36,714 nucleotides of DNA from Nevskia sp. (GTDB lineage Bacteria > Pseudomonadota > Gammaproteobacteria > Nevskiales > Nevskiaceae). Below, one piece after another: positions 8,241 through 36,624 of this stretch; within the stretch, counting starts at the first letter, position 1, and each line of letters opens with the position of its first letter. Position numbers and translations under genes: made by a program. The notes beneath the pieces are model-generated. The model was not told the DNA's origin. It ran no database searches and was given only the letters and a program-made list of their open reading frames with translations. The stretch is taken from NCBI GenBank assembly GCA_028291645.1, contig JAQGNU010000088.1, positions 1 to 36,714 of the forward strand, read 5' to 3'.

Positions 8241-8278
8241 GAAAACCTTTTGACAGAAATGTTTTCCTGTTGTACCGT
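8241..8278 (+). promoter_or_regulatory. Regulon operator O1 fused to the promoter of the DUF1329 gene
   Basis: GAAAACCTTT (8241-8250), spacer TGACAG and AAATGTTTTC (8257-8266) form the regulon operator with one mismatch between arms. TTGACA (8250-8255) is a consensus -35 box; 17 bases later TACCGT (8273-8278) is a plausible -10. Transcription would start near 8285, about 200 bases before the DUF1329 start. Confidence 0.7.
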
Positions 8279-8485
8279 AAAGCTCAAGGATGTGCTGCAG
8301 GCGCAACACTACGCAGATGCATGTTTAAGATGCACAGCGTGGGGGCCAATATAAAAAAATCTCAGGGTGGCGCTTTGCAGCGCCGAGACCGTTTGTTGCC
8401 GGTACTACAAGTTTGGCAGCGCTAGTAGCCGCATCCGTAGAGCAGCATCGAAGAGGTCCGCATGGATCCGAATTGGAGGAGCAAC

Positions 8486-9859
8486 GTGATAAAGCTGAAA
8501 TCTGCGGGTGTATCTTTTCTGTTGGTCTTGAGCGCCGGGTTCCTGGCGTTTCCCTCGTTGGCAAAAGTGCCCGCTGACCAAGCCAATCAGCTTGGCGGAG
8601 ACAAGTACACCTGTACGGGTGCCGAGAAGGCTGGCACGCCAGGTGGCGTGGCCGAGTACAGCGGCAAGTGGCTGGATTCGTGGCCGGGGATGAAGAGCAA
8701 GAGCGGCTACGATCCGGGTCCCTACGCGGACGAAAAGCCGCTGTTCACGATCACTGCACAGAACATGGCGAAGTATGCCGACAAGCTGACGGACAGCCAA
8801 AAGGGCATGTTCCAGCACTATCCGGCCGAATTTCGGATGAATGTCTACCCCAGCCATCGCGACTTCCGTGTTCCGGAGGGCGTCTGCAAGGCGGCAAAGA
8901 CGAATGCACTTAACGCGGAACTCATCGACAACGGCCTCGGGGCGACGTCGGTAACCCGAGCGCAGGCCTTCCCGTTTCCACAGAGCGGCTTGGAAGCGCT
9001 CTGGAACATCACGCTGAACAACTACGGCGCGATGAACGAGGCCATCATTTACGACTCGGCCGACATCTACGCCAACGGCAGCACCTCCTGGGCACGGCAT
9101 CGTTTCCGCTCCATCCGGCTGCCATTTGACCTCAACGCATACGGCCTGCCGCAAGGCGAGTGGAACACCTTTGCCTGGGACGGGCTGCTGGCGCCGCCGC
9201 GCGACAAAGATTCCCTCAACGTAGCGCAAGTGCCGAGCAATTTCGCAAAAAATCATAATGCGGTTTGGCAATACAATCCGGGCACCCGGCGGGTACGCCA
9301 GCTGCCGGACGTCGGCTTCGACTATCCCGAACCCCCCTCCGGCCAACGCACGGTGGACGAAGATTATCTCTTCAACGGCAGCCCGGAACGGTACGACTGG
9401 AAGCTGGTGGGCAAGCGTGAAATCTACGTCCCCTACAACAACTTCAAAATCAACGATCCGTCGCTGAAGTACAAGGACATTCTCGGCGCGAAGACGGTCA
9501 ATCCGGAATACCAGCGGTATGAGCTGCATCGGGTATGGGTGATCGAAGGCAATACCAAGCCCGGTGTGCGTCACATCTACAAGCGTCGCATCCTGTATGC
9601 CGACGAGGACTCGTGGTTTGCACTGTGGTCCGACATCTATGACGCGCGTGGTCTGCTCTGGCGCGCGTCGTGGATCGACTATCACTATTCCGCGGAATGC
9701 GCGTGCTACCACCGCGGTGTGTCCATTTATCAGGATTTGCTGTCGGGAAACTACGAGGTCGCATACCTGGTGAATGAAACGGGTACCTGGTGGAAGCTCA
9801 ACGACCCGAATAACACGCTGGACCTGTACGGGCCAAAGTCAGCCGAGCATGGTCACTAG
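8486..9859 (+). CDS. DUF1329 protein, exported
   Basis: A protein of 457 residues (465 if ATG 8462 is used). The GTG at 8486 is preferred because GGAGG lies six bases upstream. A signal peptide (IKLKSAG, then a hydrophobic core, cleavage near SLAKV) is followed by a DUF1329 domain: AEYSGKWLDSWPG, FPQSGLEALWNITL, NPEYQRYELHRVWVIEG, RHIYKRRILYADEDSWF, DARGLLWRASW. Members usually pair with a DUF1302 barrel protein and often an RND transporter, and are thought to handle hydrophobic substrates at the outer membrane. The DUF1302 gene follows at once. Its promoter contains operator O1, placing it in the TetR regulon. Confidence 0.88.
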   Translation: MIKLKSAGVSFLLVLSAGFLAFPSLAKVPADQANQLGGDKYTCTGAEKAGTPGGVAEYSGKWLDSWPGMKSKSGYDPGPYADEKPLFTITAQNMAKYADKLTDSQKGMFQHYPAEFRMNVYPSHRDFRVPEGVCKAAKTNALNAELIDNGLGATSVTRAQAFPFPQSGLEALWNITLNNYGAMNEAIIYDSADIYANGSTSWARHRFRSIRLPFDLNAYGLPQGEWNTFAWDGLLAPPRDKDSLNVAQVPSNFAKNHNAVWQYNPGTRRVRQLPDVGFDYPEPPSGQRTVDEDYLFNGSPERYDWKLVGKREIYVPYNNFKINDPSLKYKDILGAKTVNPEYQRYELHRVWVIEGNTKPGVRHIYKRRILYADEDSWFALWSDIYDARGLLWRASWIDYHYSAECACYHRGVSIYQDLLSGNYEVAYLVNETGTWWKLNDPNNTLDLYGPKSAEHGH

Positions 9860-9928
9860 GCGCACCAGAGTCACGCGTCGGTAGTTCGAGTTATGTGCTG
9901 GGGCAGTTGCCAGTTCCAATGAAAGAGC

Positions 9929-9957
9929 CCGACGCCAAAAAATACTAATGGCGTCGG
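9929..9957 (+). terminator. Hairpin between the DUF1329 and DUF1302 genes
   Basis: CCGACGCCA (9929-9937) and TGGCGTCGG (9949-9957) make a perfect nine-pair stem with an 11-base AT-rich loop, followed by TGCATCTTTT. It could be a partial terminator or an RNA stabiliser that sets the ratio of the two proteins. Confidence 0.45.
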
Positions 9958-10087
9958 TGCATCTTTTCGCATCACGAACGACCCGGAAGAAACGGACCGG
10001 GTTTGTGATCAACGGCTTTTGCGATTGGGTACTGGGCTGCAGCGGCTTTCAGACGTAAGAAAAAAGTGGGACTGGGAGGGAGAACAG

Positions 10088-11926
10088 ATGAATAAGCGTC
10101 AACACAAGATCATTCTGCAGCGGACCGCCGGACTGGCATGTGCACTGGCCGGGACCATCGGGGCGGCGACGTTCAGCGTTCCTGTTTATGCCGGCAGCAT
10201 CGACCTCGGCGGCGATTTCGAGGCGGAGTACAAACTGACCGTCAACTACTCCGCGTTGATGCGGCTGAAAGATCCAAGCGGCAGTCTCACCAACGGGCCG
10301 GTGAACGCCACCACCATGTTGCCGACAACCGTCAACTACGACGACGGCGACCGCAACTTCAAGCAGTACAGCCTGATCAACAATCGCGTCAGCGGTCTGG
10401 CGGAACTGATCGTCCACGGCCCCAACTATGGCCTCTCTCTGAGCGGCGATGGATTCTACGACCAGGTCTATCACCACCCGAATGACAACGATTCACCGGA
10501 TACCGTTAACAAGACGGGCCAGTACAATAAGTTTACGCGGGGCGCTCGCTACTACGACGGTCAGCGGCTTCGCCTGCTCGATGCGTATGCGTACGGAAAC
10601 TGGCGGCTTGGCCCTCAGCAGGACATCGACTTGCGCATCGGCAGACAGGTGAATGCCTGGGGCGAGGCGCTGTTCTTCTCGGGAATGGCAACCGCGATGT
10701 CGCCGGCGGACGCCACCAAGGCCAACATCCCGGGGATTGAAGTCAAGGATCTCTTGCTGCCTACCTATCAGGTGGCGCTCAAAATGGGCCTCACCGAAGA
10801 TTTGACCCTTGTCGGCTACTACAAGCTGCAATTCAAACCCACCGAACTGAGTCCGGCCGGAGACTTCTTTTCGACTGCGGACGTGGTTGGTCCGGGCTCG
10901 CAATTTATCTACCTGAGTCAGAATCCGTTTTATAGAATCCCGCTACCGGCTCCGCTGAACCTGCCGCTCGGGCAACTGGTTCCCGGCACGCCGCAGATAT
11001 GGACCGCACCACGCGGGCCCGACCTCAAACCGAGCAACTTCGGCCAATACGGTGCCGGTCTGAAATTCCGGCTGACGGATCAGACCAGTGTGGGTGCCTA
11101 CTACCTGCGCTACACCGACACCGCACCGATGATATCGCTCAACCCGGGCTATCAGGTCTTGATTGCGCCTTTGGTTACGCTGCCACAGGTCTTGCAGGGG
11201 CCGTTGCAGGCGGTTGAGCGCGGCATTCTGACAGCAATTGGTTTACCGCCTAGTGTGCCAATTCCATTGGTGACTGCACCACTGACGACGCAGGTGCTTG
11301 GGCAAAAAGTACCGGTGTCCTACAACCTCGGCTATCAAGACGGCATCCATATGGGGGCGCTGAGCTTCTCCACGCAGGTGTTCGGCGTGAGCGTCGCCGG
11401 AGAAGCCGATTATCGTGATGGCATCGATCTGCTGGTAAACCCCGCTTCCCCCAGCAACACCCGCGGCAAGACCATGCAGTTCGACACGAGCGCAATTCAG
11501 GCTTTGGGACACGGATGGTTCTGGGACTCGCTTCAGCTGGTGGGAGAAGCGCAATACATCCATATCCTCAGCGCCACGCCGGTCGGTGGCGTGAGTGAGC
11601 TGACCAATGGCACAGGTCATGGAAGCAAGAATGCCTGGGCGTATTCCACCCAGGTCATAACGGGCTGGAACAATGTGGTCTCCGGCTGGGACATTTCCGT
11701 GCCGATCACCTTCTCGGCAATCGCCAAGGGATCGCCACCGCCGGGAACCTTCGGCGCGCTGTACGGCGAAGGCGATCAGCGTGACTCGGTGGGCATCACG
11801 TTCAGCTACCTGCAGCGGTTGAGCCTTGGCCTGACCTACAGTGGCTTTCTGGGCACGCCGAATGTGGAGCAGCATCCATACGCCGACCGCGACAACATAG
11901 CTTTCTCCGCCAAGTACCAGTTCTAG
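10088..11926 (+). CDS. DUF1302 outer-membrane beta-barrel protein
   Basis: A 612-residue protein starting at ATG 10088 behind GGGAGGGAG. The signal peptide ends near VYAGSIDLGG (residues 33-42). The mature part has alternating polar and aromatic strands typical of DUF1302 porin-like barrels (RIGRQVNAWGEALFFSGMAT, TSVGAYYLRYTDTAPM) and ends in the aromatic AFSAKYQF, an outer-membrane insertion signal. A DUF1302 protein of Pseudomonas aeruginosa (SphA) acts with sphingosine, which supports a role with amphipathic lipids. It is paired with DUF1329 upstream and probably passes a hydrophobic substrate through the outer membrane. No copy of the regulon operator lies directly before it, so expression may depend on read-through from 8285. 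Confidence 0.85.
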   Translation: MNKRQHKIILQRTAGLACALAGTIGAATFSVPVYAGSIDLGGDFEAEYKLTVNYSALMRLKDPSGSLTNGPVNATTMLPTTVNYDDGDRNFKQYSLINNRVSGLAELIVHGPNYGLSLSGDGFYDQVYHHPNDNDSPDTVNKTGQYNKFTRGARYYDGQRLRLLDAYAYGNWRLGPQQDIDLRIGRQVNAWGEALFFSGMATAMSPADATKANIPGIEVKDLLLPTYQVALKMGLTEDLTLVGYYKLQFKPTELSPAGDFFSTADVVGPGSQFIYLSQNPFYRIPLPAPLNLPLGQLVPGTPQIWTAPRGPDLKPSNFGQYGAGLKFRLTDQTSVGAYYLRYTDTAPMISLNPGYQVLIAPLVTLPQVLQGPLQAVERGILTAIGLPPSVPIPLVTAPLTTQVLGQKVPVSYNLGYQDGIHMGALSFSTQVFGVSVAGEADYRDGIDLLVNPASPSNTRGKTMQFDTSAIQALGHGWFWDSLQLVGEAQYIHILSATPVGGVSELTNGTGHGSKNAWAYSTQVITGWNNVVSGWDISVPITFSAIAKGSPPPGTFGALYGEGDQRDSVGITFSYLQRLSLGLTYSGFLGTPNVEQHPYADRDNIAFSAKYQF

Positions 11927-11988
11927 CATCAGGCGGAGACTTGCCTGACAGCAAGCGCTGACGGTTCGCGATAGGACGATGGCCCAGT

Positions 11989-12014
11989 ACCTCAGCACCA
12001 CCCGATGCTGAGGT
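11989..12014 (+). terminator. Hairpin after the DUF1302 gene
   Basis: ACCTCAGCA (11989-11997) and TGCTGAGGT (12006-12014) form a perfect nine-pair stem with an eight-base loop, 62 bases after the DUF1302 stop. The T-run is weak (GTTGTG). It is a likely transcription end for the DUF1329/DUF1302 pair. Confidence 0.5.
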
Positions 12015-12162
12015 GTTGTGCATCAGCCCCGATGCCCCGTGGTAGCTACGCCATGCCTAAGACATTCGAACCTGTCGCCGCCCAAGCAGTGTTTTGCCGC
12101 CAGCATCGCACCGGTCGTCGCCGACGCTGCGATCGGTCAGTTGGAACAGAGTGCGTGCGAAC

Positions 12163-13065: not shown

Positions 13066-13164
13066 CTTGCGGCGTGTCCTGACGCGGTTCGATCGACGTC
13101 TTTTTCTGCAGGCGTCGCCGTACTGGGCCATGATCGGCGACGTACGCAGAATGTTTCTGAAAAT

Positions 13165-14133: not shown

Positions 14134-14181
14134 TGCAAATTCTCCACTGCACGAAAATCCACGGTGTCGATCCTTTCCGGA

Positions 14182-21340: not shown

Positions 21341-23047
21341 CTAAGCTCGCGCTGTGCAGGCATGCTCGGCGGCCAGGAAACCAAACGTCATCGCCGGGCC
21401 CAGCGTCGCCCCTGCGCCTGGATAGAAGCGGCCGGTGACAGAGGCCGAGCAGTTGCCGATTGCATAGAGCCCTTCGATCACGGCGCCCGACGAATTCACG
21501 ACCCGTCCGCGCGCATCCGTCAGCAGTCCGCCCTTCGTGCCGATGTCGCCAGGATAGATTTCAATGGCGTAGAACGGTGCGTCGGTGACCGCTGCAAGGC
21601 AGGGATTCGGCTTGATGCGCACGTCACCATAAAGAAGGTCGTAGGGGTTCTCACCGCGGGCGAAATCCGCGTCCTTGCCGACGCCGGCGAAGGCATTGAA
21701 CCGCGCAACCGTTGCAACGAGCCCCTGTGTGTCGACTCCGAGCAGTGCCGCCAACTCGGGCAGACTCTTCGCGCGCTTCAGCAGTGCGTTCCTGATCGTG
21801 CGCGGCTGCAGCCAGTTCAGGTGCATGCCATCGGCCAACAGCGGACCGAACGGGTAGTTGCGCTTGTAGCGTGAGTCGAAGATCAGAAAGGCAGGCAAAT
21901 TGCCGTGCTGATACATCGCTTGTACGGCAGTGGTATAGGCGACCGATTCGTTGAAGAAGCGCTTGCCCTGTGTGTTGACGACGATGGCGCCGGGCATCGA
22001 TCGCTCGGTGAACAGCATGCGCGCCCGATCTTCGCCTTCGATGGTGATGGTCGGTCCCCACCAGGCTTCATCGAGCAGTGCGGTTGCCGCCCCGACTGCT
22101 TGCGCGGCGACCAGCATGTCGCCGGTGTTCGAGGGATTCGCCGCGGACCAGCGCGCGCTCGTTGGTTTGGGTAGGTAGCGATCGCGCAGCTCCTGGCTAT
22201 GCTCGAAACCACCACTGGCCAGGATCACCGCCTTTCGAGCCCGGATGTTGCTCGGCTTGCCGTCTTGGCGGACACACAAGCCGATGACGCGCCCGGAGTC
22301 ATCGGTGATCAAGTCCTTTGCCGGGCTGTTGAGCCACAAAGGCACGCCGCTTTCGAGCAGGGACTTGCGCAAGCGTCCGATCAAGGCATTGCCCATCGTC
22401 AGCCGGCGTGATTGGCGCGAGCGGAACCGCCAGGGCAGATCGAGGAAATAGCGCAAGGCGAGACTGATGATCAGCTTGAACCAGCCCGGCGACTTGGATA
22501 ACAGAATTGCGCCTTCGGTATTGGTGTATCCCATCAAACCCATCACGCGTGTTTGCGTGTGGGGCTCCTGCATGTGGCGAAAGTCCTCGCCCAGTTCGCT
22601 GGCTTCGAACGGCAGCGGATCGATCGAGCGTCCGCCCGGTTTGGCCCCCGCAAGATGCTGGTAATAATCGGCGTAGTAGCTCATCGCCTGAAACTGCACC
22701 TTGGTGTGGTTGGTCAGCCAGTGCAGCATCCGCGCCGCGTTGCCGACATAGGCGGCGACGTTGGCCTTGGGAACATCGTCGCCGGTCAGCGCCGACATGT
22801 ACCGCAGCGCGTCCGCTTCGGAATCCGCGATGCCGCAATCGGCCATCAGGTGATTCGCGGGAATCCACAAGCCGCCGCCGGACGTCGCCGAAGTGCCGCC
22901 ATAGCGCGCCGCCTTTTCGACGATCAATACCTCCGATCCCGAATGCCGTGCGCGCAATGCGGCGGTCATTGCTCCGGCGCCGGATCCGACGACGACGATG
23001 TCGACGGTTTTGTCCCAGGTGATCTCGGCTGTAGCTTTTGTTTCCAT
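21341..23047 (-). CDS. FAD-dependent oxidoreductase, 3-ketosteroid-delta-1-dehydrogenase-like
   Basis: A 568-residue flavoprotein. VVGSGAGAMTAAL (20-31) is the FAD loop, followed by the KstD-type GGTSATSGGGLWIPANHLM. AMSYYADYYQHL (121-132) matches the active-site tyrosine region. Near the C-terminus GRFYPGAGATLGPAMTFG has Y542 and G546 at the four-residue spacing of Tyr487/Gly491 in Rhodococcus KstD1, which bind the 3-keto oxygen. It would introduce a C1-C2 double bond into a 3-ketosteroid or a similar cyclic ketone. ATG 23047 lies ten bases after the PQQ dehydrogenase stop, so the genes are co-transcribed. No signal peptide. Family assignment is firm; steroid specificity is inferred. Confidence 0.85.
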   Translation of the reverse strand: METKATAEITWDKTVDIVVVGSGAGAMTAALRARHSGSEVLIVEKAARYGGTSATSGGGLWIPANHLMADCGIADSEADALRYMSALTGDDVPKANVAAYVGNAARMLHWLTNHTKVQFQAMSYYADYYQHLAGAKPGGRSIDPLPFEASELGEDFRHMQEPHTQTRVMGLMGYTNTEGAILLSKSPGWFKLIISLALRYFLDLPWRFRSRQSRRLTMGNALIGRLRKSLLESGVPLWLNSPAKDLITDDSGRVIGLCVRQDGKPSNIRARKAVILASGGFEHSQELRDRYLPKPTSARWSAANPSNTGDMLVAAQAVGAATALLDEAWWGPTITIEGEDRARMLFTERSMPGAIVVNTQGKRFFNESVAYTTAVQAMYQHGNLPAFLIFDSRYKRNYPFGPLLADGMHLNWLQPRTIRNALLKRAKSLPELAALLGVDTQGLVATVARFNAFAGVGKDADFARGENPYDLLYGDVRIKPNPCLAAVTDAPFYAIEIYPGDIGTKGGLLTDARGRVVNSSGAVIEGLYAIGNCSASVTGRFYPGAGATLGPAMTFGFLAAEHACTARA

Positions 23048-23057
23048 CGCTGCGGCC

Positions 23058-25025
23058 TCAGTCGGGCAAGGTAAAGGCAAGGATCGCGTCGCCCGGCTCG
23101 GTGCCCAGCGGTGCGTGGCCGCCGGCGGCGATCACGACGTATTGCTTGCCGTGCGGTTTTACGCGATAGGTGATCGGCGTTGCGTTGCCCGCGTAGGGAA
23201 GTTCGTAGCGCCACAATTCGTTGCCCGTATCCGCGTCAATCGCACGGAAGTAGCGGTCCATCGTCGCTGCTACGAAAATCAAATCACCACCAGTTTGCAA
23301 GTTTCCTCCCGAGTTCGGCGTCCCCCACTTCAGCATGCCACCGACCAGGGGCGCGAGGTTGTGCAGCGTGCCGAGCGGCCGCTCCCACAGTCGCTCACCA
23401 GTGGTCAAATCGATTGCGACCAATTTGCCCCAGGGCGGCGCGATGCAAGGCGTTTTCCACGGCGACAGGAAGGGGCCGCGTGTCACCACGTAAGGCGTGT
23501 CTTCCTGCGGTCCGAATCCGACCAGATCGCTGCCGTCGCTGCTGCCGTGATAGCCCTCGCGGCGTTCCAGCTTGATGACGAATGGTGCTGCTTGAAGATT
23601 GACGATCATGCGGTTGCGATGCGGATCGATTGACACGGAGCCCCAGTTCACGCCGCCGCCGAGACCGGGATATTCGAGGATGCCCTTCAACGAAGGCGGC
23701 GTGAACACGCCCTTGTAGTCAAGCGCATCGAACTGCGCTGCGCATTTCCCCTTGTCGTAGCCGGTCAGGCCCCATAGATCGGCGTGCGACAGTTCGAGCG
23801 GATAAAGCGGTGCCGGCTTGGTGGCGAAAGGCTGCGTCGGTGAAGCGGTTTCACCCGGCACGGTCGACGCTGGAACGGGCCGCTCCTCGACCGGGAACAG
23901 CGGCACTCCGGTGGTCCGATCGAGCAGAAAGACTTGTCCGACTTTGGTCGCCTCGACCAATGCAGGCACAGGTTTCCCGTCGACATTTCTTTCGAAGAGT
24001 ACGGGCTGGGCCGCGACATCGTAGTCCCAAAGGTCGTGATGAACCGTCTGGAAGTGCCATCGCACAATACCGGTGGCGGCATCCAGGGCGACAACCGAAG
24101 AACCGTAGTAGTCCATGTTGCCGCGTTCCTTGCCGCCGTAATGATCAGGCGCCGGGTTGCCGGTGGGAACATAAATAAGCCCGCGCTCCGGATCGGCCGA
24201 CATCAGCGACCAGACATTCGGCGTTCCGCGCGTCAGCGTTGCGCCCTGTTTGACTTCGTTGGCCGAAACCGCGTGCTGATCGGGCGGCACCGGATCCCAA
24301 ACCCACTTCAATTCGCCGCTACGGGTATCGAAGGCGCGGACGGCGCCGCTGGGCGCGTGCAATCGCTGGACATCCTTGACGAATGCGCCGATGACTACGA
24401 GCCCATTAATGACCAGAGGAGCGGAAGTAGGGTAGTACTCGGCGAGTCGAACTTCGCCGATGCCGTCGAGCAAATTGATGTGCCCGCCATCGCCGAAATC
24501 CTTGCAGGGGAGCCCATCCGCAGCGTCGACTGCCCAGAGTTTCGCGTCGACGGTTCCCATGAAAATCCGATCTCGGCACTTGTCTGCTGCCGCCGCGTTC
24601 TGGTCATGCCAGTACGCCACACCGCGGCATACGGGCGTGTAGACACCCGTTAAATCGGTCTTCGAATCGAACTTCCACCGCTCGGCGCCGGTTTCTGCAT
24701 CCAGAGAGATGATCCGGTTGAAAGGGGTGCAGAAGTAGAGCGCGTCGCCGACCATGATCGGCGTCACTTCCAGCGCTGTTCCTCCATGTTGCTTGTCGCC
24801 CTTGGATAAGTCGCCGCTGTGGTAGGTCCAGGCAGGGCGCAATCGGGATACATTGTTCTTTTGAATGTCGCTCAGTTCGGAGTAGCGTTGAGCAGACGGA
24901 GTGCCGCCTACGGTCGGCCATTCAGAAGTGGCGTCTCCATTGATCGTGGACGCTGGACTGCCCGTGCAGGCGCACAGAAAAACCGTTAAGGCACCGATTA
25001 AAAAAACCATCCGAGACACTCGCAT
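23058..25025 (-). CDS. PQQ-dependent dehydrogenase, exported lipoprotein-like
   Basis: A 655-residue quinoprotein of the glucose/quinate dehydrogenase branch: an eight-bladed propeller with VSRLRPAWTYHSGD, TPIMVGDALYFCTP, SLDAETGAERWKFD, WGTPNSGGNLQTGGDLIFVA and KQYVVIAAGGHAPLG. An N-terminal hydrophobic segment ends in FLCAC, a plausible lipobox with C20 as acylation site. The five membrane helices of Gdh are missing and so is a cytochrome domain. GGAGG sits two bases before ATG 25025, so GTG 25019 may be the true start. It should oxidise an alcohol or aldose in the periplasm; no PQQ synthesis genes are in the window. Operators O2 and O3 lie upstream. Confidence 0.87.
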   Translation of the reverse strand: MRVSRMVFLIGALTVFLCACTGSPASTINGDATSEWPTVGGTPSAQRYSELSDIQKNNVSRLRPAWTYHSGDLSKGDKQHGGTALEVTPIMVGDALYFCTPFNRIISLDAETGAERWKFDSKTDLTGVYTPVCRGVAYWHDQNAAAADKCRDRIFMGTVDAKLWAVDAADGLPCKDFGDGGHINLLDGIGEVRLAEYYPTSAPLVINGLVVIGAFVKDVQRLHAPSGAVRAFDTRSGELKWVWDPVPPDQHAVSANEVKQGATLTRGTPNVWSLMSADPERGLIYVPTGNPAPDHYGGKERGNMDYYGSSVVALDAATGIVRWHFQTVHHDLWDYDVAAQPVLFERNVDGKPVPALVEATKVGQVFLLDRTTGVPLFPVEERPVPASTVPGETASPTQPFATKPAPLYPLELSHADLWGLTGYDKGKCAAQFDALDYKGVFTPPSLKGILEYPGLGGGVNWGSVSIDPHRNRMIVNLQAAPFVIKLERREGYHGSSDGSDLVGFGPQEDTPYVVTRGPFLSPWKTPCIAPPWGKLVAIDLTTGERLWERPLGTLHNLAPLVGGMLKWGTPNSGGNLQTGGDLIFVAATMDRYFRAIDADTGNELWRYELPYAGNATPITYRVKPHGKQYVVIAAGGHAPLGTEPGDAILAFTLPD

Positions 25026-25134: not shown

Positions 25135-25158
25135 AAAACATTTGTACATAAATGTTAC
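25135..25158. promoter_or_regulatory. Regulon operator O2 near the PQQ dehydrogenase gene
   Basis: AAAACATTT (25135-25143), spacer GTACAT and AAATGTTAC (25150-25158) match the 9-6-9 operator with seven symmetric pairs in the inner arms. The spacer here is GTACAT, not TGACAC. It lies 110 bases upstream of the PQQ dehydrogenase start and 104 bases from O3, so it may act on the leftward operon or help form a loop with O3. Confidence 0.65.
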
Positions 25159-25254: not shown

Positions 25255-25298
25255 ATCCAGTAAAACATTTTGACATAAATGTTTTACTGGATTAGGAT
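25255..25298 (+). promoter_or_regulatory. Regulon operator O3 fused to the amidohydrolase promoter
   Basis: ATCCAGTAAAACATTT (25255-25270) and AAATGTTTTACTGGAT (25277-25292) are perfect 16-base inverted repeats around TGACAT. TTGACA (25270-25275) is a consensus -35, and 17 bases later TAGGAT (25293-25298) is the -10. Transcription should begin near 25305 and read the amidohydrolase gene at 25425. A repressor bound here would cover the whole promoter. Confidence 0.8.
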
Positions 25299-25424: not shown

Positions 25425-26531
25425 ATGTCTGTTACCGCCCCCGAAGTCAAACAACGGTTAGTCTCGGCTGACTCCCACGTCTATTTTTCCGGAGATTGGA
25501 TCAAACAGCGCTTGCGCAAGGACTTGCATAAAGTCTGGGACGAGGGGATGGCCAAGGCCGCGGACTACAACGAGAAAGTCCAGCGCGCCGGGCAGCCGCA
25601 ACTGCACATGGAGGACTTTGTCGATCCAGAGGCATCAAAGGATCTGGGCTACAAGGAGCCGGCAGCCAAGATCGCGGCGATGGATCGCGACGGTGTCCTG
25701 GCGGAAGTGATCTTCCCGGAAGTCGGCGGCGCCGCCGTCTGCCATCCGGCGCTGATGGGCAACGACTGGAAGGAGATGTTCAAGGGCTACAACCAGTCGA
25801 TGGCGGATTTTGCCGCGTACAATCCGGATCGCTTGCTGTGTGCCTACCAGCTGCCCCTGATGGATATCGATTTCGCCGTCAAGGAAGTCACCCGGCTCGC
25901 CAAAGATCACAAGGCGCGTTGCGTTCAACTGACGCCGTTCCCGAGTGACAGTGGTCTGCCGGACTTTCAGGACAAGGTCTACGAGCCACTGTGGAAGACG
26001 ATCGAAGAGACCGGCTTGACGATCATGAACCACCTGGAACTCAGGGCCAGCCTGTGGGACGTTTTCCGTCGCGATCCGACGCCGCAAAAGGGCATCTTCA
26101 CCGGGCTTGCGTGGGCGCCTCTGGCGGAGGCGATCTGTTTCTGGATTCTGACCGGAACGCTGGAAAAGTATCCGAAGATGAAGGTGATATTCGTCGAACC
26201 GGGACTCGGCTGGCTACCCTGGTTCTTCGAGTCGGTGCTGGATCCGCGCATGCACCTGCACTATGAGTTCCCAGGCGTGAAGCGTCTGCCGAGCGAGACG
26301 TTTCGTGCGCAATGCGGCGCAACGTTCATGTACGAGCCGAAAGGGCTGAAGGCCTGCTATGACTTCTTCGGCGCCGAATGCCTGTACTGGTCGACCGATT
26401 TCCCACATCCGGCGACGTGCTGGCCGAATTCACAGAAGCAGGTGATCAGCCAATTCGCGGAAGCCGGTATTCCGGAAGGCGACCGTCGCCAGATCATTTG
26501 CGACAATGCGCTGAAGACGTTTGGTCTTTAA
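25425..26531 (+). CDS. Amidohydrolase-family protein (COG2159 type)
   Basis: A 368-residue TIM-barrel protein of the Amidohydrolase_2 group, which includes ACMSD-type decarboxylases and hydrolases. It begins VSADSHVYFSGDW, where the usual N-terminal His-x-His metal pair is Asp-x-His, as in many uncharacterised members. Further family segments are EVIFPEVGG, NHLELRASLW, VIFVEPGLGWLPWFFES and the C-terminal STDFPHPATCWPNS, whose Asp is the conserved metal or catalytic residue. GAGGAGG lies about seven bases before ATG 25425. Its promoter is operator O3. It probably hydrolyses or decarboxylates a pathway intermediate in the cytoplasm. Confidence 0.85.
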   Translation: MSVTAPEVKQRLVSADSHVYFSGDWIKQRLRKDLHKVWDEGMAKAADYNEKVQRAGQPQLHMEDFVDPEASKDLGYKEPAAKIAAMDRDGVLAEVIFPEVGGAAVCHPALMGNDWKEMFKGYNQSMADFAAYNPDRLLCAYQLPLMDIDFAVKEVTRLAKDHKARCVQLTPFPSDSGLPDFQDKVYEPLWKTIEETGLTIMNHLELRASLWDVFRRDPTPQKGIFTGLAWAPLAEAICFWILTGTLEKYPKMKVIFVEPGLGWLPWFFESVLDPRMHLHYEFPGVKRLPSETFRAQCGATFMYEPKGLKACYDFFGAECLYWSTDFPHPATCWPNSQKQVISQFAEAGIPEGDRRQIICDNALKTFGL

Positions 26532-26639: not shown

Positions 26640-27248
26640 CTACAATCCGGAGAGCATGATCTGCAGTGCCATCTTGACGTGGTGCAGATGGGTGCTCAGG
26701 TTCCGAACCTTGCGTTCGAAAACGTTTTCCATCGACAGCCCGGTGATGCAACAGTGCGCAAAAGTCAGGGCTTCGCGGATCTTGGCATCGCTGATCTTGG
26801 TATCGTGGAACACGTCACGGATGACTTTCAAATGGGCGCGTCCGCGACGCTGCTCCCATGCCCGCACCGGATGTGTCTCGTCGCCGCGCGTCGCCAGCAG
26901 AATCTCCACTGAAACCCAGCAGTAATCGCTCTGGTAATGAACCCACATGCGTTCTACGAAGTGATGAATGCGATCGGCCATGGACCCAGTGTGAAGTTCA
27001 GGTACGTCCATGACTTCGATGAACCGGTTATAGGCTAAGGCCAGAATCGCTTCGAGGATTTCTTCCTTCGATCTGAAATGATGCTGTGCTGCACCCCAGG
27101 TCATGTCGACGCGCTGCGCGATGCGACTCGAACTCGCAGCGGCGAAGCCGCCTTCCTTGATCAACTCGATCGTGGCGTTTATGAGTTTCTCGCGGGTACG
27201 TTGAGCTTTGAGCGCCTGATGGCCCAGCGGAACATTCGTTTTGATCAT
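26640..27248 (-). CDS. TetR-family regulator, copy 1 of the regulon pair
   Basis: A 202-residue TetR protein. The N-terminal HTH is RTREKLINATIELIKEGGFA, then ASSSRIAQRVDMTWGAAQHH with recognition helix TWGAAQHHF. The ligand domain (FIEVMDVPELHTGSMADRIH onwards) is divergent from other TetR proteins but aligns along its length with the second TetR at 35757. ATG 27248 is preferred; the frame is open to 27302 but those residues overlap the operator. Operator O4 lies 23 bases upstream between this gene and the divergent DapB-like operon, so it probably represses both itself and the operon until an effector binds. Confidence 0.85.
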   Translation of the reverse strand: MIKTNVPLGHQALKAQRTREKLINATIELIKEGGFAAASSSRIAQRVDMTWGAAQHHFRSKEEILEAILALAYNRFIEVMDVPELHTGSMADRIHHFVERMWVHYQSDYCWVSVEILLATRGDETHPVRAWEQRRGRAHLKVIRDVFHDTKISDAKIREALTFAHCCITGLSMENVFERKVRNLSTHLHHVKMALQIMLSGL

Positions 27249-27270: not shown

Positions 27271-27307
27271 AAAACATTTTGACACAAATCTTTCTGCGCC
27301 ATACCAT
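27271..27307 (+). promoter_or_regulatory. Regulon operator O4 fused to the DapB-EXPERA-DapB promoter
   Basis: AAAACATTT (27271-27279), spacer TGACAC and AAATCTTTC (27286-27294): the left arm is perfect, the right arm has two mismatches. TTGACA (27279-27284) is the -35 and TACCAT (27302-27307) follows after 17 bases. On the other strand a TATAAG lies at 27267-27262, close to the TetR start, so one operator can control both directions. Confidence 0.7.
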
Positions 27308-27425: not shown

Positions 27426-28511
27426 ATGCCCCGACTTCGTGTCATTCAATGCGGTACTGGTATTGCAGGTAAACAGGCGCTGCGCGCAATTCTGACCAAC
27501 AAGTCACTCGAACTGGTCGGTCTGCAGGTACATAGTGCCGCCAACGCCGGTCGCAAGGCTACAGACATCGCTGGTATGCCGGACCCGTGCTGTGATGTTT
27601 TTGCGACGAATGACCTCGGCAACCTGTCCCGGCTCGAAGCGGACATTGTCTGCTACATGATGCTGGTCCCCGACGTCGATGCCATTTGCACGTTTCTCGC
27701 ATCCGGCAAGAGTGTCGTCACCACTGCCGGCCTGATGTGGCCAGCCTGGGCTGACGAAACCAGCATGCGCCGCTTGGAAGAGGCCTGCCGGCAAGGCAAG
27801 GCATCGTTTTACGCGACCGGCATCAACCCGGGCTGGGCCGATGAAATCCTGCCGCTGACGATGTCGGTGATGTGTCGCGAAATCCGGCAGATTCATATTC
27901 GAGAATACGCAGACTGTTCGAAGTACCCGGCGCCGCACATCATCAGCGTGATGGGCTTCGGCAAGCCGCTCGAGGACATACACGCCGGGCGGCTGCCGGA
28001 TATGGCGATCATGCGCGAGTTTTTCACGCAGACCGTCGCGGCATTGGCGCACGGCCTGAAGCTCAAGCTGGACGACATCACCGAGTCGCGCGAGTTTGTG
28101 ATGGCCCCGCGCGCCTACGATATCGCCGCCGGTCATGTGCCGAAAGGCACGATCGCCGGCCAGCGCTGGCGCTGGCAGGGCATCGCAGCGGGGGTGGCGC
28201 GTATCGTTCAGGATACGTACTGGATCACCGCTTTCGATCTGGGCGAAGGCTGGCCGCAGGCTGCTGACGCGAGCAACGATACGCAGTGGCGGGTGACGAT
28301 CGAGGGCACGCCTTCGCTGCGTTGCACTTTCGAGCCCCGCTACACTTTTTCCGAGCAGGCGCTCAGCGGCGTGCCGGACTTCAATCCTTCGGGCCTGGCT
28401 ACGGCGATGGCGGCAGTCAACAGTCTGAAGCCGGTGCACGAGGCGCGCAGCGGCGTGCTGACGAGCGCCGATCTTCCGCTGCCGCGCAGTCATCAACTTG
28501 CCCATGGCTGA
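27426..28511 (+). CDS. DapB-like NAD(P)-dependent oxidoreductase, copy 1
   Basis: A 361-residue protein of the family annotated as dihydrodipicolinate-reductase-like or NAD(P)H-dependent amine dehydrogenase. The Rossmann loop is VIQCGTGIAGKQAL (5-18); ASGKSVVTTAGLMWPA and FYATGINPGWADEILPLTMS are family hallmarks. The start at 27426 is set by alignment with copy 2 (29000 region); no ribosome-binding site lies before it. Its stop overlaps the start of the EXPERA gene by eight bases. It reads from the O4 promoter. The reaction is unknown; relatives act on amines or keto acids. Confidence 0.82.
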   Translation: MPRLRVIQCGTGIAGKQALRAILTNKSLELVGLQVHSAANAGRKATDIAGMPDPCCDVFATNDLGNLSRLEADIVCYMMLVPDVDAICTFLASGKSVVTTAGLMWPAWADETSMRRLEEACRQGKASFYATGINPGWADEILPLTMSVMCREIRQIHIREYADCSKYPAPHIISVMGFGKPLEDIHAGRLPDMAIMREFFTQTVAALAHGLKLKLDDITESREFVMAPRAYDIAAGHVPKGTIAGQRWRWQGIAAGVARIVQDTYWITAFDLGEGWPQAADASNDTQWRVTIEGTPSLRCTFEPRYTFSEQALSGVPDFNPSGLATAMAAVNSLKPVHEARSGVLTSADLPLPRSHQLAHG

Positions 28512-28998
28512 TCGCAGGCGCTACCGGGCGTACGACGCATTTTTCATTGCCGCATTCGGCATGTTCGTGCTGGTCGCCTTCGTGCACGAGCCGCTGTTCT
28601 ATCTCTACTGCGGCTGGGATGGCCTGCGCCACGATTCCTGCACCAACGCGACGGTTGCGCAAATCTGGAAGAGCTATGCGAAGGCCGATCCGGTGTATTT
28701 CGACATGCCGTTATGGATGGCGCTGATGATCGGCTTCGATAGCATCTTGCTGAGTCCGTTCTACGTCTACGCAATCTATGCCTTCGCCACCGGGCGCGTC
28801 GATACCCCGCTGTTCCGCGCCGTGGGCTACACGGTAAGCGGGGCGCTGATCTACGCCATGGTGCTGTACCTGACGTGGGAAGTGATCAGTGCAAAGCAGT
28901 ACGGCACGTCTTTGCTTCCGGTGATCGGCTACAACCTGCCCTGGGGCCTGGTCCCGCTGCTGCTGGTAATACGCCTTTATCACGGAGGGAAAGCGTGA
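28504..28998 (+). CDS. EXPERA-domain membrane protein (TMEM97/EBP-like)
   Basis: A 164-residue integral membrane protein with four predicted helices (about 12-32, 70-95, 103-125, 139-158). The segment ADPVYFDMPLWMALMIGFDS (61-80), followed by LSPFYVYAIYAFATGRVDTP, matches the EXPERA pattern shared by eukaryotic TMEM97/MAC30, TM6SF and the sterol isomerase EBP. Those proteins bind or convert sterols, so a bacterial version in this operon may bind a steroid-like compound. It overlaps the preceding gene by eight bases and shares GTGA with the following one, so all three are translationally coupled. The family call is from pattern memory; enzymatic activity is not shown. Confidence 0.7.
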   Translation: MADRRRYRAYDAFFIAAFGMFVLVAFVHEPLFYLYCGWDGLRHDSCTNATVAQIWKSYAKADPVYFDMPLWMALMIGFDSILLSPFYVYAIYAFATGRVDTPLFRAVGYTVSGALIYAMVLYLTWEVISAKQYGTSLLPVIGYNLPWGLVPLLLVIRLYHGGKA

Positions 28999-30074
28999 CG
29001 AAAAAATATCGGGTGATTCAATATGCCACCGGCGGCGCGGGCAAGCATGCAGTCGCCGGCATCGTCGGGCATCCACAACTCGATCTTGTCGGGCTGCTGG
29101 TGCATAGCAAGGACAAAGTCGGCCTCGACGCCGGTGCGATCTCCGGCATCGGACCGGTGGGTATCACCGCGACCGACGACATCGAAAAAATCGTAGCGCT
29201 GCCGGCGGACTGCGTCTCCTACATGGCGCTGTGGCCCGATGTCGACCTGATCTGCCGCTTTCTCGAATCGGGCAAGAATGTGGTGACGACCTCGGGCCTG
29301 CTGTATCCGAAGTTCTTCGGCCCGGCGCTGGTGGAGCGGTTGGAGAAGGCCTGCGCAAAGGGCGCGACTTCGGTCCATGGCACCGGCGTCAACCCGGGCT
29401 TTTCCGGCGAGGTCTTGCCGCTCACCATGTCGGTGATGAGCCGTCGCATCGACCAGATCTTTGTTCGTGAGTTTGCCGACTTCCGCACCTACAACTCGCC
29501 GGAGCTGAACCACGACATGCTGGGATTCGGCCGGACGATCGAGGATGTGCGCGGGCACAAGCACCCGAACTTCGACCTGATGATGCAGTTTTTCCACCAG
29601 TCCATCGCGATGGTGGCCGATGGTCTGGGCATGCCGCTCGAACGGATCGAGCAGACCGAGGAATACGGCCTCACCGCAGCGGGAACGCAGATTGAATCCG
29701 GACCGGTGCCGGCGGGCACCATCGGCGGCATCAAGACGCGTTTCTCCGGCATCGTCGGCGGGCGGCCGATGATCGTTATTCAACTGGTTTGGGTAGCGAC
29801 CTATGATCTGGGCGAGGGCTGGCCGTCGCCGCAGGATGCGAGCAACCACACCCAGTGGAGCGTCACCATCGAAGGCGAGCCGTCGCTGCGCTGCGTGTTC
29901 GAACAGGCGTCCAGCTTCGAACACAAGAACGCCAACGAATCGCACACCGCGCCCGCGATGATCTGCACGGCGATGCATGCCGTGAATGCGATTCCCTACG
30001 TCTGCGATGCGGCGCCCGGCATCCGCACGTTTCTGGACTTGCCGCTGATGGCCGGACGTTACGCCGTGCGTTGA
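28995..30074 (+). CDS. DapB-like NAD(P)-dependent oxidoreductase, copy 2
   Basis: A 359-residue paralogue of the enzyme at 27426. VIQYATGGAGKHAV is the cofactor loop; ESGKNVVTTSGLLYPKFFGP and SVHGTGINPGFSGEVLPLTM mirror copy 1, as does YDLGEGWPSPQDASNHTQWS. GTG 28995 overlaps the EXPERA stop (GTGA) and has GGAGGGA seven bases upstream. Copies 1 and 2 differ enough that they may form a heteromer or act on successive intermediates. No signal peptide. Confidence 0.85.
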   Translation: MTKKYRVIQYATGGAGKHAVAGIVGHPQLDLVGLLVHSKDKVGLDAGAISGIGPVGITATDDIEKIVALPADCVSYMALWPDVDLICRFLESGKNVVTTSGLLYPKFFGPALVERLEKACAKGATSVHGTGVNPGFSGEVLPLTMSVMSRRIDQIFVREFADFRTYNSPELNHDMLGFGRTIEDVRGHKHPNFDLMMQFFHQSIAMVADGLGMPLERIEQTEEYGLTAAGTQIESGPVPAGTIGGIKTRFSGIVGGRPMIVIQLVWVATYDLGEGWPSPQDASNHTQWSVTIEGEPSLRCVFEQASSFEHKNANESHTAPAMICTAMHAVNAIPYVCDAAPGIRTFLDLPLMAGRYAVR

Positions 30075-31687: not shown

Positions 31688-31696
31688 CGTGAAACT

Positions 31697-31992: not shown

Positions 31993-32089
31993 GGGCACAC
32001 TGCAGCACTCGAATCATCGCGGGGGAGCTGAACATGCTCCCTCGTTTTGCCCAGAGCGTGATCAATGCAATTGAATACCGGAGCAGACC

Positions 32090-32509: not shown

Positions 32510-32590
32510 CGGCTCGGAGCATCGCTGTGAAACCATTTACGACATTGCCGCGATGATCTGCGGTGCGCGGTCCACGAACTGGAGTTGCCT

Positions 32591-33499: not shown

Positions 33500-33520
33500 A
33501 CGCGGCGTGCTCAGTGCGGT

Positions 33521-34639
33521 TCAGTCCGAGATGCGGATTTCGAGGCTGCGCAGCGTCTTCAGCACGGCGCTCGACAGCTTTGCCTTGCGGCCTGCGCGAT
33601 TGAAAAGGCGTGCGCGCAGCGCTTCGCCGCTGTCGAGGTAGAGACGTTCCATCGCGCGGTGCAGGATGGCCTCGGTGCTCAACTCGGCGTGTTCGCCGTT
33701 GACGCGCGGCACGCCTGTATCCAGACACATGAACAGCTGCTCGGCGGTTGTGGCGAAGCGCGCCGCACCGCTGCTGCCGAGCACGCGGCTGAGATCGGCC
33801 TCGATGCGCCCAAGGTTGTCGAGCGAGTCGCGAATCAGTCGCAGGCCGGAATCGGTGAGGAAAATCATCGTTGAACGGCGGTCGCAGGGATGCTGCCGGC
33901 GCTGCACGTAGCCGAGCTGCTCAACCTGTTTGACCACCTGGCTGATCGCCTGTTTCGAGACGTTGTTGATGCGTGCGAGATCGTTGATCAGCGTGCCGTG
34001 CGGCGAGCTGTAGGTCAGCACCTGCGCGAACGACATCTTCAATCCGCGATAGCCGCTGGCTTTGTCCAAATCCATCAGCGTGCGCTCGCAAAAAGTCGCC
34101 AGGCCGGCCAGGCACAGCGGCAGCGCGGCGGCAGGATTGTGGGGTGGCGCCGCATCGGCGCGCGGCGCCACCAGCGCGTTGAACAGCTGCGTGCAGCTAC
34201 GCTTGAAGTCGGCCAGCGCTGCCGCACCGATTAGCTGCGATAGCTCTTGCTCGATGCGCGCGGAGGTGGCTTCCGCACAGGCGGCCAGTCGCTCGCCTTT
34301 GCGTGTGAGCAACAGCCGTTTGGCGCGGCGATCGCTGAGGTCTGGCTTGCGCGACAGATAACCCAGGCGCTCCAGTTCGTCGGCGATCTGCCCCGCCACC
34401 TGCTGCGTAAGCCCGCAGTATTGAGCGATGTCGACCAGCCGGCGGCCCTCCGGACGCAGCTGGAACAGCAGTTGCACGAACGGCGCGCGCACGCCGGAAT
34501 AACCCTGCGCCGTGCAGGCGGATACGAGCTGCTGATTGAGCGCGCGCGCGACCACAGAAATATGTCGCGGGAGATTGTTGGCGAAACGGGCGAGAACGAG
34601 CTTGCGGTCGATCCCAGGCTGGGTGGCGGAAAGCGACAT
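33521..34639 (-). CDS. Fused double-MarR transcriptional regulator
   Basis: A 372-residue protein with two complete MarR domains. The first (about 15-155) has RLVDIAQYCGLTQQVAGQIA and the wing KPDLSDRRAKRLLLTRKGER. The second (about 180-330) has TLINDLARINNVSKQAISQV and the wing RQHPCDRRSTMIFLTDSGLR. MarR proteins are normally single-domain ~150-residue homodimers, so this is a pseudo-dimer on one chain. About 40 further residues follow. The start MSLSATQPGIDRKL at 34639 is preferred over ATG 34681. It is convergent with the SDR copy 2 and divergent from the SDR gene at 34945. Confidence 0.85.
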   Translation of the reverse strand: MSLSATQPGIDRKLVLARFANNLPRHISVVARALNQQLVSACTAQGYSGVRAPFVQLLFQLRPEGRRLVDIAQYCGLTQQVAGQIADELERLGYLSRKPDLSDRRAKRLLLTRKGERLAACAEATSARIEQELSQLIGAAALADFKRSCTQLFNALVAPRADAAPPHNPAAALPLCLAGLATFCERTLMDLDKASGYRGLKMSFAQVLTYSSPHGTLINDLARINNVSKQAISQVVKQVEQLGYVQRRQHPCDRRSTMIFLTDSGLRLIRDSLDNLGRIEADLSRVLGSSGAARFATTAEQLFMCLDTGVPRVNGEHAELSTEAILHRAMERLYLDSGEALRARLFNRAGRKAKLSSAVLKTLRSLEIRISD

Positions 34640-34944
34640 GGCGGCGGGGACAATCACTGGCGGAAACAATGCCGCGAACATAGCCTAAGGTGCTGCGCAG
34701 GGCTACCGCCCGCTATGTTCTGCCGCGTCCCGCGCAACACCGCGGACTTGCGTCGCCGCAGTCTGATATAGGCACAAAGTCCGTTCGCCGCTACTCCAAT
34801 ATGAGTAGGAACGGCTGCCGTGGATTGACTAGGCTTGTGCGCCGCGAGCGGCTGATCGCCTGGTCGGAGGATCGCTGCAAGTGAATCACAAACCATGCTG
34901 GTGACCGGCCTGCGCCCGATCCCACCTCAACCGAGAACCGAACG
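34640..34944. promoter_or_regulatory. Divergent control region with palindrome
   Basis: A 305-base gap between the double-MarR gene and the SDR gene. CTACTC (34791-34796) and GAGTAG (34803-34808) form an inverted repeat around CAATAT, a possible MarR site. The short frames here have no good ribosome-binding site or protein-like sequence. Confidence 0.4.
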
Positions 34945-35715
34945 ATGAACAATGGATTTCCGCAGGGCGCAGTCCTGGTGCTGGGCGGCAGTGGCGGAAT
35001 TGGCCGGGCAGTGGCGCTGTCATTCGCGCGCGCGGGAACCGATGTGGCTGTCGCCTACCGATCCAAGCAAGCTGAGGCGGAGAAGGTTGCCGGCGAGATC
35101 CGGGCGCTCGGGCACAAGGCGACGATTCATCAGGCGGATGTGACGCAGCCGGCGCAGGTCGAAGCGATCGTCGCGGCAGCGCTGCGCGAGCATCAGCGCA
35201 TACACACGGTGGTGTTTGCCGCCGGACCGGTGGTCGAGCAGATGCTGATCGGCGCGACTCCGCACGATCTGTGGCGCAAATCGATCGATATTGAAGTGCA
35301 TGGATTCTTCAATGTCGTGCAGGCGACGCTGCCCGCATTGCGCGCGGCGGGCGGCGGCTCTTACGTGCATCTGGGTTCGGCAGGTCATCTGTGGTGGCCG
35401 CACAAGGACGGCTTGTCGGTGGCGCCGAAAGCGGCCAACGAAGCGCTCATACGCGGTATCGCAAAAGAGGAGGGCGTAAACGGCATCCGCGCCAACTCGG
35501 TGCTGGTCGGAGTGATCGAGGCCGGCATGTTTCTGGAGTTGCTGGAGCGCGGCGTGTTCGATCGCAAGTGGATCGACGAGACGCAGAAGCTGCTGGCTTT
35601 GAAGCGCTGGGGCAAGCCGGAGGAAATCGGCCATGCGGCGGTGTTCCTCGCCTCCGATAAGGCGGCCTACATCACCGGCCAGCAAATCAATGTGTCCGGC
35701 GGATTCGGCGTTTGA
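34945..35715 (+). CDS. SDR-family protein lacking the catalytic tyrosine
   Basis: A 256-residue SDR. LVLGGSGGIGRAVAL is the cofactor loop. The NNAG position reads FAAGP. The serine of HLGSAG is present, but Y-x3-K is replaced by S-V-A-P-K (GLSVAPKAANEAL), so the general-acid tyrosine is missing. The tail YITGQQINVSGGFGV is typical. The fold and cofactor site look intact; it may use other chemistry or have lost activity. It is divergent from the double-MarR gene, which may regulate it. Confidence 0.85.
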   Translation: MNNGFPQGAVLVLGGSGGIGRAVALSFARAGTDVAVAYRSKQAEAEKVAGEIRALGHKATIHQADVTQPAQVEAIVAAALREHQRIHTVVFAAGPVVEQMLIGATPHDLWRKSIDIEVHGFFNVVQATLPALRAAGGGSYVHLGSAGHLWWPHKDGLSVAPKAANEALIRGIAKEEGVNGIRANSVLVGVIEAGMFLELLERGVFDRKWIDETQKLLALKRWGKPEEIGHAAVFLASDKAAYITGQQINVSGGFGV

Positions 35716-35756
35716 GCGAGTGCGTAGCCGACGAGAATTAAAAACGATGGTCGCCG

Positions 35757-36404
35757 CTACATTTCGGTGAGCATGATCAGCATCGCCATTTTGATGCGCT
35801 GAAGATGGCGATCGACATTGCGGGTGCGGGTCTCGAATACCCGTTCTATCGTCAAGCCGTCGAGGAAGCAGTGGGTGAATCTCAGCGCCTCGAGCAAATG
35901 AGTATCGTCCAGCTTGGAGTCGTGAAAAACCTCGCGCAGCGTTTTCAAATGGCTGCGCGCCTGGCGCTTTTGCAGGTTCGCCGATACTTTTCCGGAAAAT
36001 GCCCGGGTGGCCAGTAAGATTTCCAGCGCAACCAGGTAGAGATCCTCCTGGTAGTGCGCCCACATCCGGTCTACGAATAAGCTGACGCGGTCGGCGAGCG
36101 ATCCCGTGCGCAAGGCGGCGTCTGCCATCCTGATCGTGAACCGCTCGTGCGACATCTCCAGGATCGAGTCGAGGATGTCCTCTTTGGTGCCGAAGTGATG
36201 TTGCACCGCGCCCCAGGTGGTTCCCGCCCGTTCGGCGATCTTGCTCGAACTCGCCGCCGCAAAGCCGCCTTCCTTGATCAGAGAAATAACCGCATTGATG
36301 ATGGCTTCACGCGTGCGTTTGGTTTTTAAAGCCTGCCGGCCGAGCACGGGCTCCTCTGTTACCGCTGGTTTTTTACGCACGGGGGAATCGTTCGGGAAGT
36401 TCAT
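35757..36404 (-). CDS. TetR-family regulator, copy 2 of the regulon pair
   Basis: A 215-residue TetR protein. Its HTH is RTREAIINAVISLIKEGGFA, then ASSSKIAERAGTTWGAVQHH, and the recognition helix TWGAVQHHF differs from copy 1 by one residue. The ligand domain keeps FVDRMWAHYQEDLYLVALEI, LLATR and LREVFHDSKLDD, all aligned with copy 1. ATG 36404 has no clear ribosome-binding site but is preceded by TATATA, so the transcript may be nearly leaderless. Operator O5 lies 180 bases upstream. The two proteins probably share one operator but respond to different ligands. Confidence 0.87.
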   Translation of the reverse strand: MNFPNDSPVRKKPAVTEEPVLGRQALKTKRTREAIINAVISLIKEGGFAAASSSKIAERAGTTWGAVQHHFGTKEDILDSILEMSHERFTIRMADAALRTGSLADRVSLFVDRMWAHYQEDLYLVALEILLATRAFSGKVSANLQKRQARSHLKTLREVFHDSKLDDTHLLEALRFTHCFLDGLTIERVFETRTRNVDRHLQRIKMAMLIMLTEM

Positions 36405-36441
36405 TCAAATATATAACGGCTCGAGTTATTGGAATAGCGTG

Positions 36442-36501
36442 ATTGGCCGCACGAGCCTGTTCGGCGCCCAGGAATCCGAACGTCGCCGCCGCGGCTAAGG
36501 C
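36442..36501 (-). pseudogene. Possible remnant of a KstD-like C-terminus
   Basis: On the minus strand the frame reads ALAAAATFGFLGAEQARAAN, which parallels the intact KstD C-terminus GPAMTFGFLAAEHACTARA at 21341. Nothing upstream of it in frame looks like the rest of the enzyme. I take it as a scrap of a second FAD dehydrogenase, but about 20 residues is thin evidence. Confidence 0.35.
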
Positions 36502-36582
36502 TCGCCCCGATCGCCGTGCTCGATACGGCCTGATCACGCGTCCATGCCCGACTGCCGAGCCCCAAAGGTGCTTCGGCAATGC

Positions 36583-36624
36583 CCAGCAAAACATTTTGAC
36601 ACAAATGTTTTGCTGGATTAGGAT
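36583..36624 (+). promoter_or_regulatory. Regulon operator O5 fused to a promoter pointing out of the window
   Basis: CCAGCAAAACATTT (36583-36596) and AAATGTTTTGCTGG (36603-36616) are perfect 14-base inverted repeats around TGACAC. TTGACA (36596-36601) is the -35 and TAGGAT (36619-36624) follows after 17 bases. The layout, including CTGGATTAGGATG, is the same as in O3. It should drive a gene to the right of the window. Confidence 0.8.

Follow-up and report, generated by a model that had tools for sequence, protein, structure and literature searches.

Introduction

The regulators of bacterial steroid degradation have been called a "very short list" (PMC8700777). KstR and KstR2, the actinobacterial regulators of cholesterol catabolism, are TetR-type proteins of steroid genes with several intergenic palindromic sites, including sites at their own genes; the KstR2 motif is the 14-bp AnCAAGnnCTTGnT (PMC3068626). 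EdcR, the estradiol repressor of Caenibius tardaugens, has a TetR_C_11 domain and a proposed operator, TnnCnnTACnAnTnGTAnnGnnA, lying over the −10 box (PMC8700777). In the bsd I bile-salt cluster of C. tardaugens, the TetR protein EGO55_16300 adjoins an amidohydrolase, and its authors propose predicted palindromes other than those treated here (PMC12882949). The subject of this paper is a contig of a Nevskia species (C168; 36,714 bases, analyzed entire and called the window; the genome has 3.83 Mb in 234 contigs). In it, a palindrome with the 24-base core AAAACATTT-N6-AAATGTTTT recurs at five places, O1 to O5, among candidate steroid-catabolism genes and two genes for TetR proteins, TetR1 and TetR2.

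The locus resembles those of KstR and KstR2 in the type of regulator, the kind of genes, and the several intergenic palindromes, the regulator's own surroundings included. The preliminary description of this DNA had not recognized the motif as that of KstR or KstR2, and rightly so. TetR1 and TetR2 score 34.2 and 33.4 bits on the KstR model NF033703, far below its cutoff of 280, and AnCAAGnnCTTGnT, allowing one mismatch, has two chance-level matches in the window (4377 and 32108) and none at the five sites; membership of either system is rejected on these grounds. The likeness to EdcR would be that of a proteobacterial TetR repressor placed over steroid-gene promoters and released by steroid. 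Membership is again rejected, as TnnCnnTACnAnTnGTAnnGnnA has no match in the window at up to two mismatches, and TetR_N is the only domain found in TetR1 and TetR2, with no match to TetR_C_11. The likeness of EGO55_16300 to TetR1 rests on gene neighborhood, that is, an adjoining amidohydrolase gene, and the two differ in the palindromes proposed for them. Systems in which steroid genes are under a TetR repressor are already known; the one predicted here is set apart from KstR, KstR2, and EdcR by operator or family score. Its operator was not found described in the titles and opening abstract lines of the matches listed from the open-licence PMC literature on steroid or estrogen degradation and TetR, and a search with the two arms and the word "operator" gave, among the matches listed, no steroid-gene paper by title.

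The Palindromes as Probable Operators of a TetR Clade

We propose, with a probability of roughly 0.8, that the palindromes are operators of a TetR clade, acting through TetR1, TetR2, or both, and that they make up a repressor regulon for steroid catabolism. The proposal is carried by what was computed: a set of sites that is not random, recurs at orthologous genes, and accompanies the TetR clade, and promoter-like hexamers at a fixed spacing.

Five cores with 0–2 mismatches are found in the window, against none in 100 dinucleotide shuffles. These are the five sites listed in the preliminary description, and all are confirmed, although just two match the motif exactly; of the starts given there, 25255 and 36583 are those of the longer arms, and 8241 is one base early. 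The lengths it gave for the perfect arms, 16 bases at O3 and 14 at O5, were measured as 9+7 (core at 25262) and 9+5 (core at 36588). Across the genome, up to three mismatches yield nine places, solely on C168 and two other contigs, C78 and C144, and one place for a reversed control pattern; up to two mismatches yield eight and none, respectively. One stretch of 127 bases forms the end of C168, the end of C78, and the start of C144, so that the eight places are at most seven distinct sites. Beyond the window, there is one further strong site, at the end of C78, while C144 has a weaker site ahead of a LuxR-like gene. By visual inspection of the lists of open reading frames, all eight places lie outside genes, as had been claimed for the window, with the proviso that O4 falls within the longest possible reading frames of both its neighbors, the homologues of which begin further in. 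Matches as common inside genes as between them, the outcome that would have spoken against a regulon, are not what the genome holds.

The association with TetR was assessed at three depths. Among 17 congeners, only two, G021 and G023, encode this TetR, and these two hold eight more sites near orthologues of the cluster. Sites of G021 precede KshA, DapB, DUF1329, ALDH (ALDH/SDR), and CMD genes; those of G023 precede DapB and KshA, with a weaker one before EXPERA2 (see below). In the family, a close TetR homologue (E ≤ 1e-12) occurs in 12 of 58 genomes, and in 11 of the 12 KstD1 and the PQQ dehydrogenase lie no more than a few kilobases away from it, the exception being G021, where the contig ends first. 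At up to one mismatch, sites occur in 4 of the 12 TetR-bearing genomes versus 0 of the 46 that lack it; at up to two mismatches, the counts are 7 of 12 versus 4 of 46. In a gammaproteobacterial sample of 368 other genomes, seven have one place at up to one mismatch and none has two, and the reversed control gives 10 of 368. The seven single places, one of them exact (G194), are taken as chance. TetR (E ≤ 1e-10) was found in none of those seven genomes, in a search that covered them and not the other 361 of the sample, and that found TetR in four of four positive genomes.

To look across genera, 80 named loci were fetched by TetR alignment, 41 of close relatives and 39 of distant ones. Two of the close loci, L058 and L059, repeat G023 and G021, which leaves 39 independent loci among the 41. 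Sites were scored with a matrix trained on 12 sites of this genome (G000), G021, and G023, with a maximum of 33.7. A site scoring at least 16 is present at 31 of the 41 close loci versus 1 of the 39 distant ones (L112, a weak 16.9), and the maximum in the shuffled 80 loci (single-base shuffles, one per locus) is 13.3. Of the 41 close loci, 11 have a site in the 300 bp upstream of tetR; an even spread of the 54 sites would put 0.9 there. A midpoint-rooted tree of 63 proteins took in 61 of the 80 loci (19 distant ones being omitted by choice). Every row whose site scores 22 or more belongs to a single, fully supported group of 43; the other 20 rows have no such site. Nevskia, Halieaceae, Spongiibacteraceae, Porticoccaceae/SAR92, and some alphaproteobacteria share the operator, and the Solimonas group has a variant of it. 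Many of the distant TetRs (L098-L137 except L124) come from metagenome-assembled genomes of Myxococcota and so-called Deltaproteobacteria.

Several observations weigh against the proposal. Five of the 12 TetR-bearing family genomes have no site at up to two mismatches, and joint inheritance of operator and cluster within the family may explain part of the co-occurrence. Ten of the 41 close loci, including six of seven Solimonas loci and L059, have no site scoring at least 16 in the stretch examined; in four Solimonas genomes there is just a motif variant before KshA, scoring 7.5 to 18.5. Neither G021 (L059) nor G023 (L058) has a site within 300 bp of tetR. The −10 hexamers described below agree with TATAAT at just three or four of six positions. 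Finally, all 39 distant TetRs carry the recognition peptide TWGA[AV]QHH, with a site in the one case of L112. As the scan for TetR loci was itself selected on this peptide, and the distant TetRs combine it with absence of the site, a common helix does not prove a common operator and was dropped as evidence. Either the helix alone does not predict this operator, or the operators of the distant TetRs lie elsewhere. The distant loci are richer in G+C (0.66 versus 0.58 for the close loci). The helix is also invariant in 13 alignment rows found without the peptide pattern, which proves little.

TetR1 and TetR2 match TetR_N (PF00440) at 42.6 and 41.8 bits, with a cutoff of 24. They have the same recognition-helix residues, so that either may act at a given site. 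The AlphaFold2 model of TetR1 is all helices (pLDDT 90.7); the 50 matches listed from a Foldseek search with it are, to judge from their titles, regulators of TetR type or without a name, the best at E 8.3e-5. These are generic TetR matches without a ligand hint.

A different regulator of the cluster might bind the palindromes, with TetR merely traveling along: an AraC-type protein (4435 or 19019), the double-MarR protein at 33521, or the LuxR-like protein of C144. All are encoded in or adjoining the cluster, the weaker site precedes the LuxR-like gene, and LuxR-like or MarR relatives are also near TetR at several marine loci. Against this, the sites directly before tetR in 11 of 41 loci point to TetR, with the caveat that the loci were fetched by TetR, which is therefore common by design; L070, L078, and L088 have sites and no match to the other regulators; and AraC matches occur at none of the 41 close loci. 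We consider such a regulator quite unlikely.

Overlap of Proposed Operator and Promoter

The preliminary description placed a TTGACA −35 box in four of the five sites, with a −10-like hexamer exactly 17 bases on, and this stands, O2 at 25135 being the exception. The same arrangement holds wherever the spacer carries TGACA in this genome, G021, and G023, at 12 sites in all: TTGACA occupies motif positions 9–14, and a TA---T hexamer (TAGGAT, TAGCAT, TAGTAT, TACCAT, or TACCGT) follows exactly 17 bases on, for 9 or 10 of 12 consensus letters overall. These 12 are partly non-independent, as the 127-base repeat is common to O5 and the C78 site, and others are orthologous. The G021 site preceding DUF1329 has TACCGT at the same spacing as O1. 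The promoter listing has 20 sites, and eight of them are without the TGACA-spacer promoter. Four of the eight belong to group g10, G021 and G023 have one each, and the other two are O2 and the site ahead of the LuxR-like gene on C144.

In the four g10 genomes (L045-L048), a variant, AAAACATTG-N6-AAATGTTTY (or TTTT), stands before KshA, 17 to 59 bases from the aligned start. These sites carry TTGTTA, TTGTTG, or TTGTCC two bases earlier than the Nevskia register, and 6 to 8 of 12 consensus letters. Among 34 distinct sites of other genera, none has a spacer that begins with TGACA. The Croceicoccus estronivorus operator precedes a P450 gene (227.6 bits) and follows a separate TTGACA, as seen by eye. 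The earlier idea that operator and promoter are the same element holds for this genus, so far as sequence tells, as an operator lying over a promoter, and fails in general. Because the spacer outside Nevskia is not TGACA, the operator is probably the older component.

Binding, repression, ligand, and steroid substrate we infer from these features, as follows. A TetR dimer, or a pair of dimers, would sit on each 24-bp site. In Nevskia, the site would overlie the −35 box of a sigma-70-type promoter, so that RNA polymerase would be shut out until a steroid, or an early catabolic intermediate, released the repressor. The regulon would consist of DUF1329/DUF1302, the PQQ dehydrogenase and KstD-like protein, KshA, the amidohydrolase, DapB-EXPERA-DapB, and tetR1.

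Some TetR proteins activate transcription, and TetR1 or TetR2, instead of only repressing, could activate or do both; the weak −10 hexamers could need such help. Yet the Nevskia site covers the −35 hexamer, a usual place for occlusion, and the sites before tetR suggest autoregulation, so we hold activation to be unlikely.

Predicted Targets and the Contig Ends

The coordinates of the sites and of the presumed regulon genes are collected in Table 1. The grouping of DUF1329, the amidohydrolase, DapB-EXPERA-DapB, the PQQ/KstD genes, and an unseen gene into one regulon, proposed in the preliminary description, is supported as far as sequence can carry it. The predicted targets look like steroid-breakdown genes, with steroid as a putative substrate; this assignment is made because of KshA and the KstD-like protein, whose score on the 3-ketosteroid-delta-1-dehydrogenase model (618.4 bits) is under the curated cutoff of 789.

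Table 1. Positions of the palindromic sites and of genes in the window, with related features on other contigs.
Feature	Position	Strand	Remarks
O1 operator	8242..8265	+	1 mismatch; TTGACA 8250-8255, −10-like TACCGT 8273-8278; ahead of DUF1329/DUF1302
O2 operator	25135..25158	- (direction inferred)	2 mismatches; spacer without TGACA; 109 bp before minus-strand PQQ dehydrogenase/KstD-like operon
O3 operator	25262..25285	+	exact; TTGACA 25270-25275, TAGGAT 25293-25298; 139 bp before amidohydrolase
O4 operator	27271..27294	+	2 mismatches; TTGACA 27279-27284, TACCAT 27302-27307; between tetR1 (22 bp away) and DapB-EXPERA-DapB
O5 operator	36588..36611	+	exact; TTGACA 36596-36601, TAGGAT 36619-36624; 183 bp from tetR2, ahead of KshA on C144
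Mirrored-flank sites	window 25255-25292, 36583-36616; L040 3153; L041 7439 and 11514
TetR1, candidate repressor	26640..27248	-	Pfam TetR_N; homologue alignment; start taken at ATG 27248
TetR2, TetR1 paralogue	35757..36404	-	54% identical to TetR1 over 193 residues
DUF1329 protein, presumed O1 target	8462..9859	+	domain match
DUF1302 protein, presumably O1 operon	10019..11926	+	domain match
PQQ-domain dehydrogenase, presumed O2 target	23058..25025	-
KstD-like FAD protein, PQQ dehydrogenase operon	21341..23080	-	best NCBIfam model 3-ketosteroid-delta-1-dehydrogenase, below cutoff
Amidohydrolase, presumed O3 target	25425..26531	+
DAP_DH_C-domain dehydrogenase (DapB-like), presumed O4 target	27426..28511	+	start inferred; homologues align from about there
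EXPERA (EBP) protein, O4 operon	28498..28998	+
Second DapB-like dehydrogenase, O4 operon	28875..30074	+
Protein with two MarR-type stretches	33521-34681		single protein
LuxR-like protein	C144 (L010) 5372-6589		label by eye; Pfam HTH_20 only, below cutoff; weaker operator ~100 bp upstream

The gene beyond O5, unseen in the window, can now be named. The last 127 bases of the window (36588-36714) are identical to the end of C78 (L011; 6428-6554) and to the start of C144 (1-127), and this repeat begins exactly at the operator. The first gene of C144 encodes a Rieske oxygenase of the KshA type (KshA_C 182.6 bits, cutoff 23.3), the start of which is 127 bases past the operator. The shared stretch has the look of an assembly overlap (k=127) at a repeat; probably the KshA leader is duplicated and the assembly broke there. 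The first 88 bases of C78 are 94% identical to the end of the C144 KshA; then come EXPERA2 (a small protein so labeled by us, with no Pfam match), an aldehyde dehydrogenase, two SDRs, a hydroxyisobutyrate-dehydrogenase-like protein, and a KstD-like FAD protein, and then the same operator. A genome search for KshA found one full copy and one 34%-identical relative. The simplest layout has two KshA copies, each behind its own operator, with the body of one absent from the assembly; a strain mixture may also account for it.

Outside the family, ten site-adjacent proteins were scanned: two AMP-binding ligases, two P450s, one acyl-CoA dehydrogenase, one CoA-transferase, one luciferase-like protein, one nitronate monooxygenase, one histidine kinase, and one without a match.

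Mirrored Flanks

At some Nevskia sites the palindromes extend past the core. Of the 16 Nevskia sites, 15 were entered in a flank test, and removal of near-identical sites brought the three sets compared from 15 to 14, 4 to 3, and 40 to 34. Between 4 and 8 further complementary bases lie beyond the 24-base core at 5 of the 14 distinct Nevskia sites versus 3 of 273 cross-pairs, a result equaled in none of 20,000 permutations; the mean number of matches over eight flank bases is 3.57 versus 2.25 (permutation 0.00135). Because the mirrored letters differ between sites, the flanks are not a wider recognition sequence. Elsewhere, mirrored flanks are seen at 1 of 34 sites in other genera (L080, 10 bases; permutation 0.21) and at none of three in the Solimonas group. 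At L074 8055, L080 8049, and L081 8067, the sites match and share a left flank, which the right flank mirrors only in L080, a SAR92 site, and L081, and not in the Porticoccaceae site L074. Mirrored flanks are thus a feature of Nevskia plus one marine pair.

Might the palindromes be a mobile inverted repeat, or a hairpin or terminator element, rather than operators? The long perfect arms, lengthened by the mirrored flanks, and the copy that opens the 127-base exact repeat would fit such an element. The flanks, however, vary from site to site while the core recurs across families, and 12 of the Nevskia sites precede genes with the spacing of a promoter. As the core alone is common to the genera, this was rejected as the main explanation and is very improbable.

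Quasipalindromes are known to mutate by template switching (PMC7202029, PMC8794818). We tentatively suggest, as a possibility short of an even chance, that the operators lengthen by self-copying: the promoter spacer would fix the downstream flank, and a hairpin-guided template switch would rewrite the upstream flank as its mirror, giving each site a private extended palindrome. Selection for hairpins may instead be the cause.

Implications

With an operator shared by a whole regulator clade, the targets of that clade may be listed from sequence and checked in cultured strains. The sites could also give steroid-responsive promoters for biosensors. They would further offer a case in which one genus has an operator merged with the −35 box, while in other genera the operator stands apart from that box.

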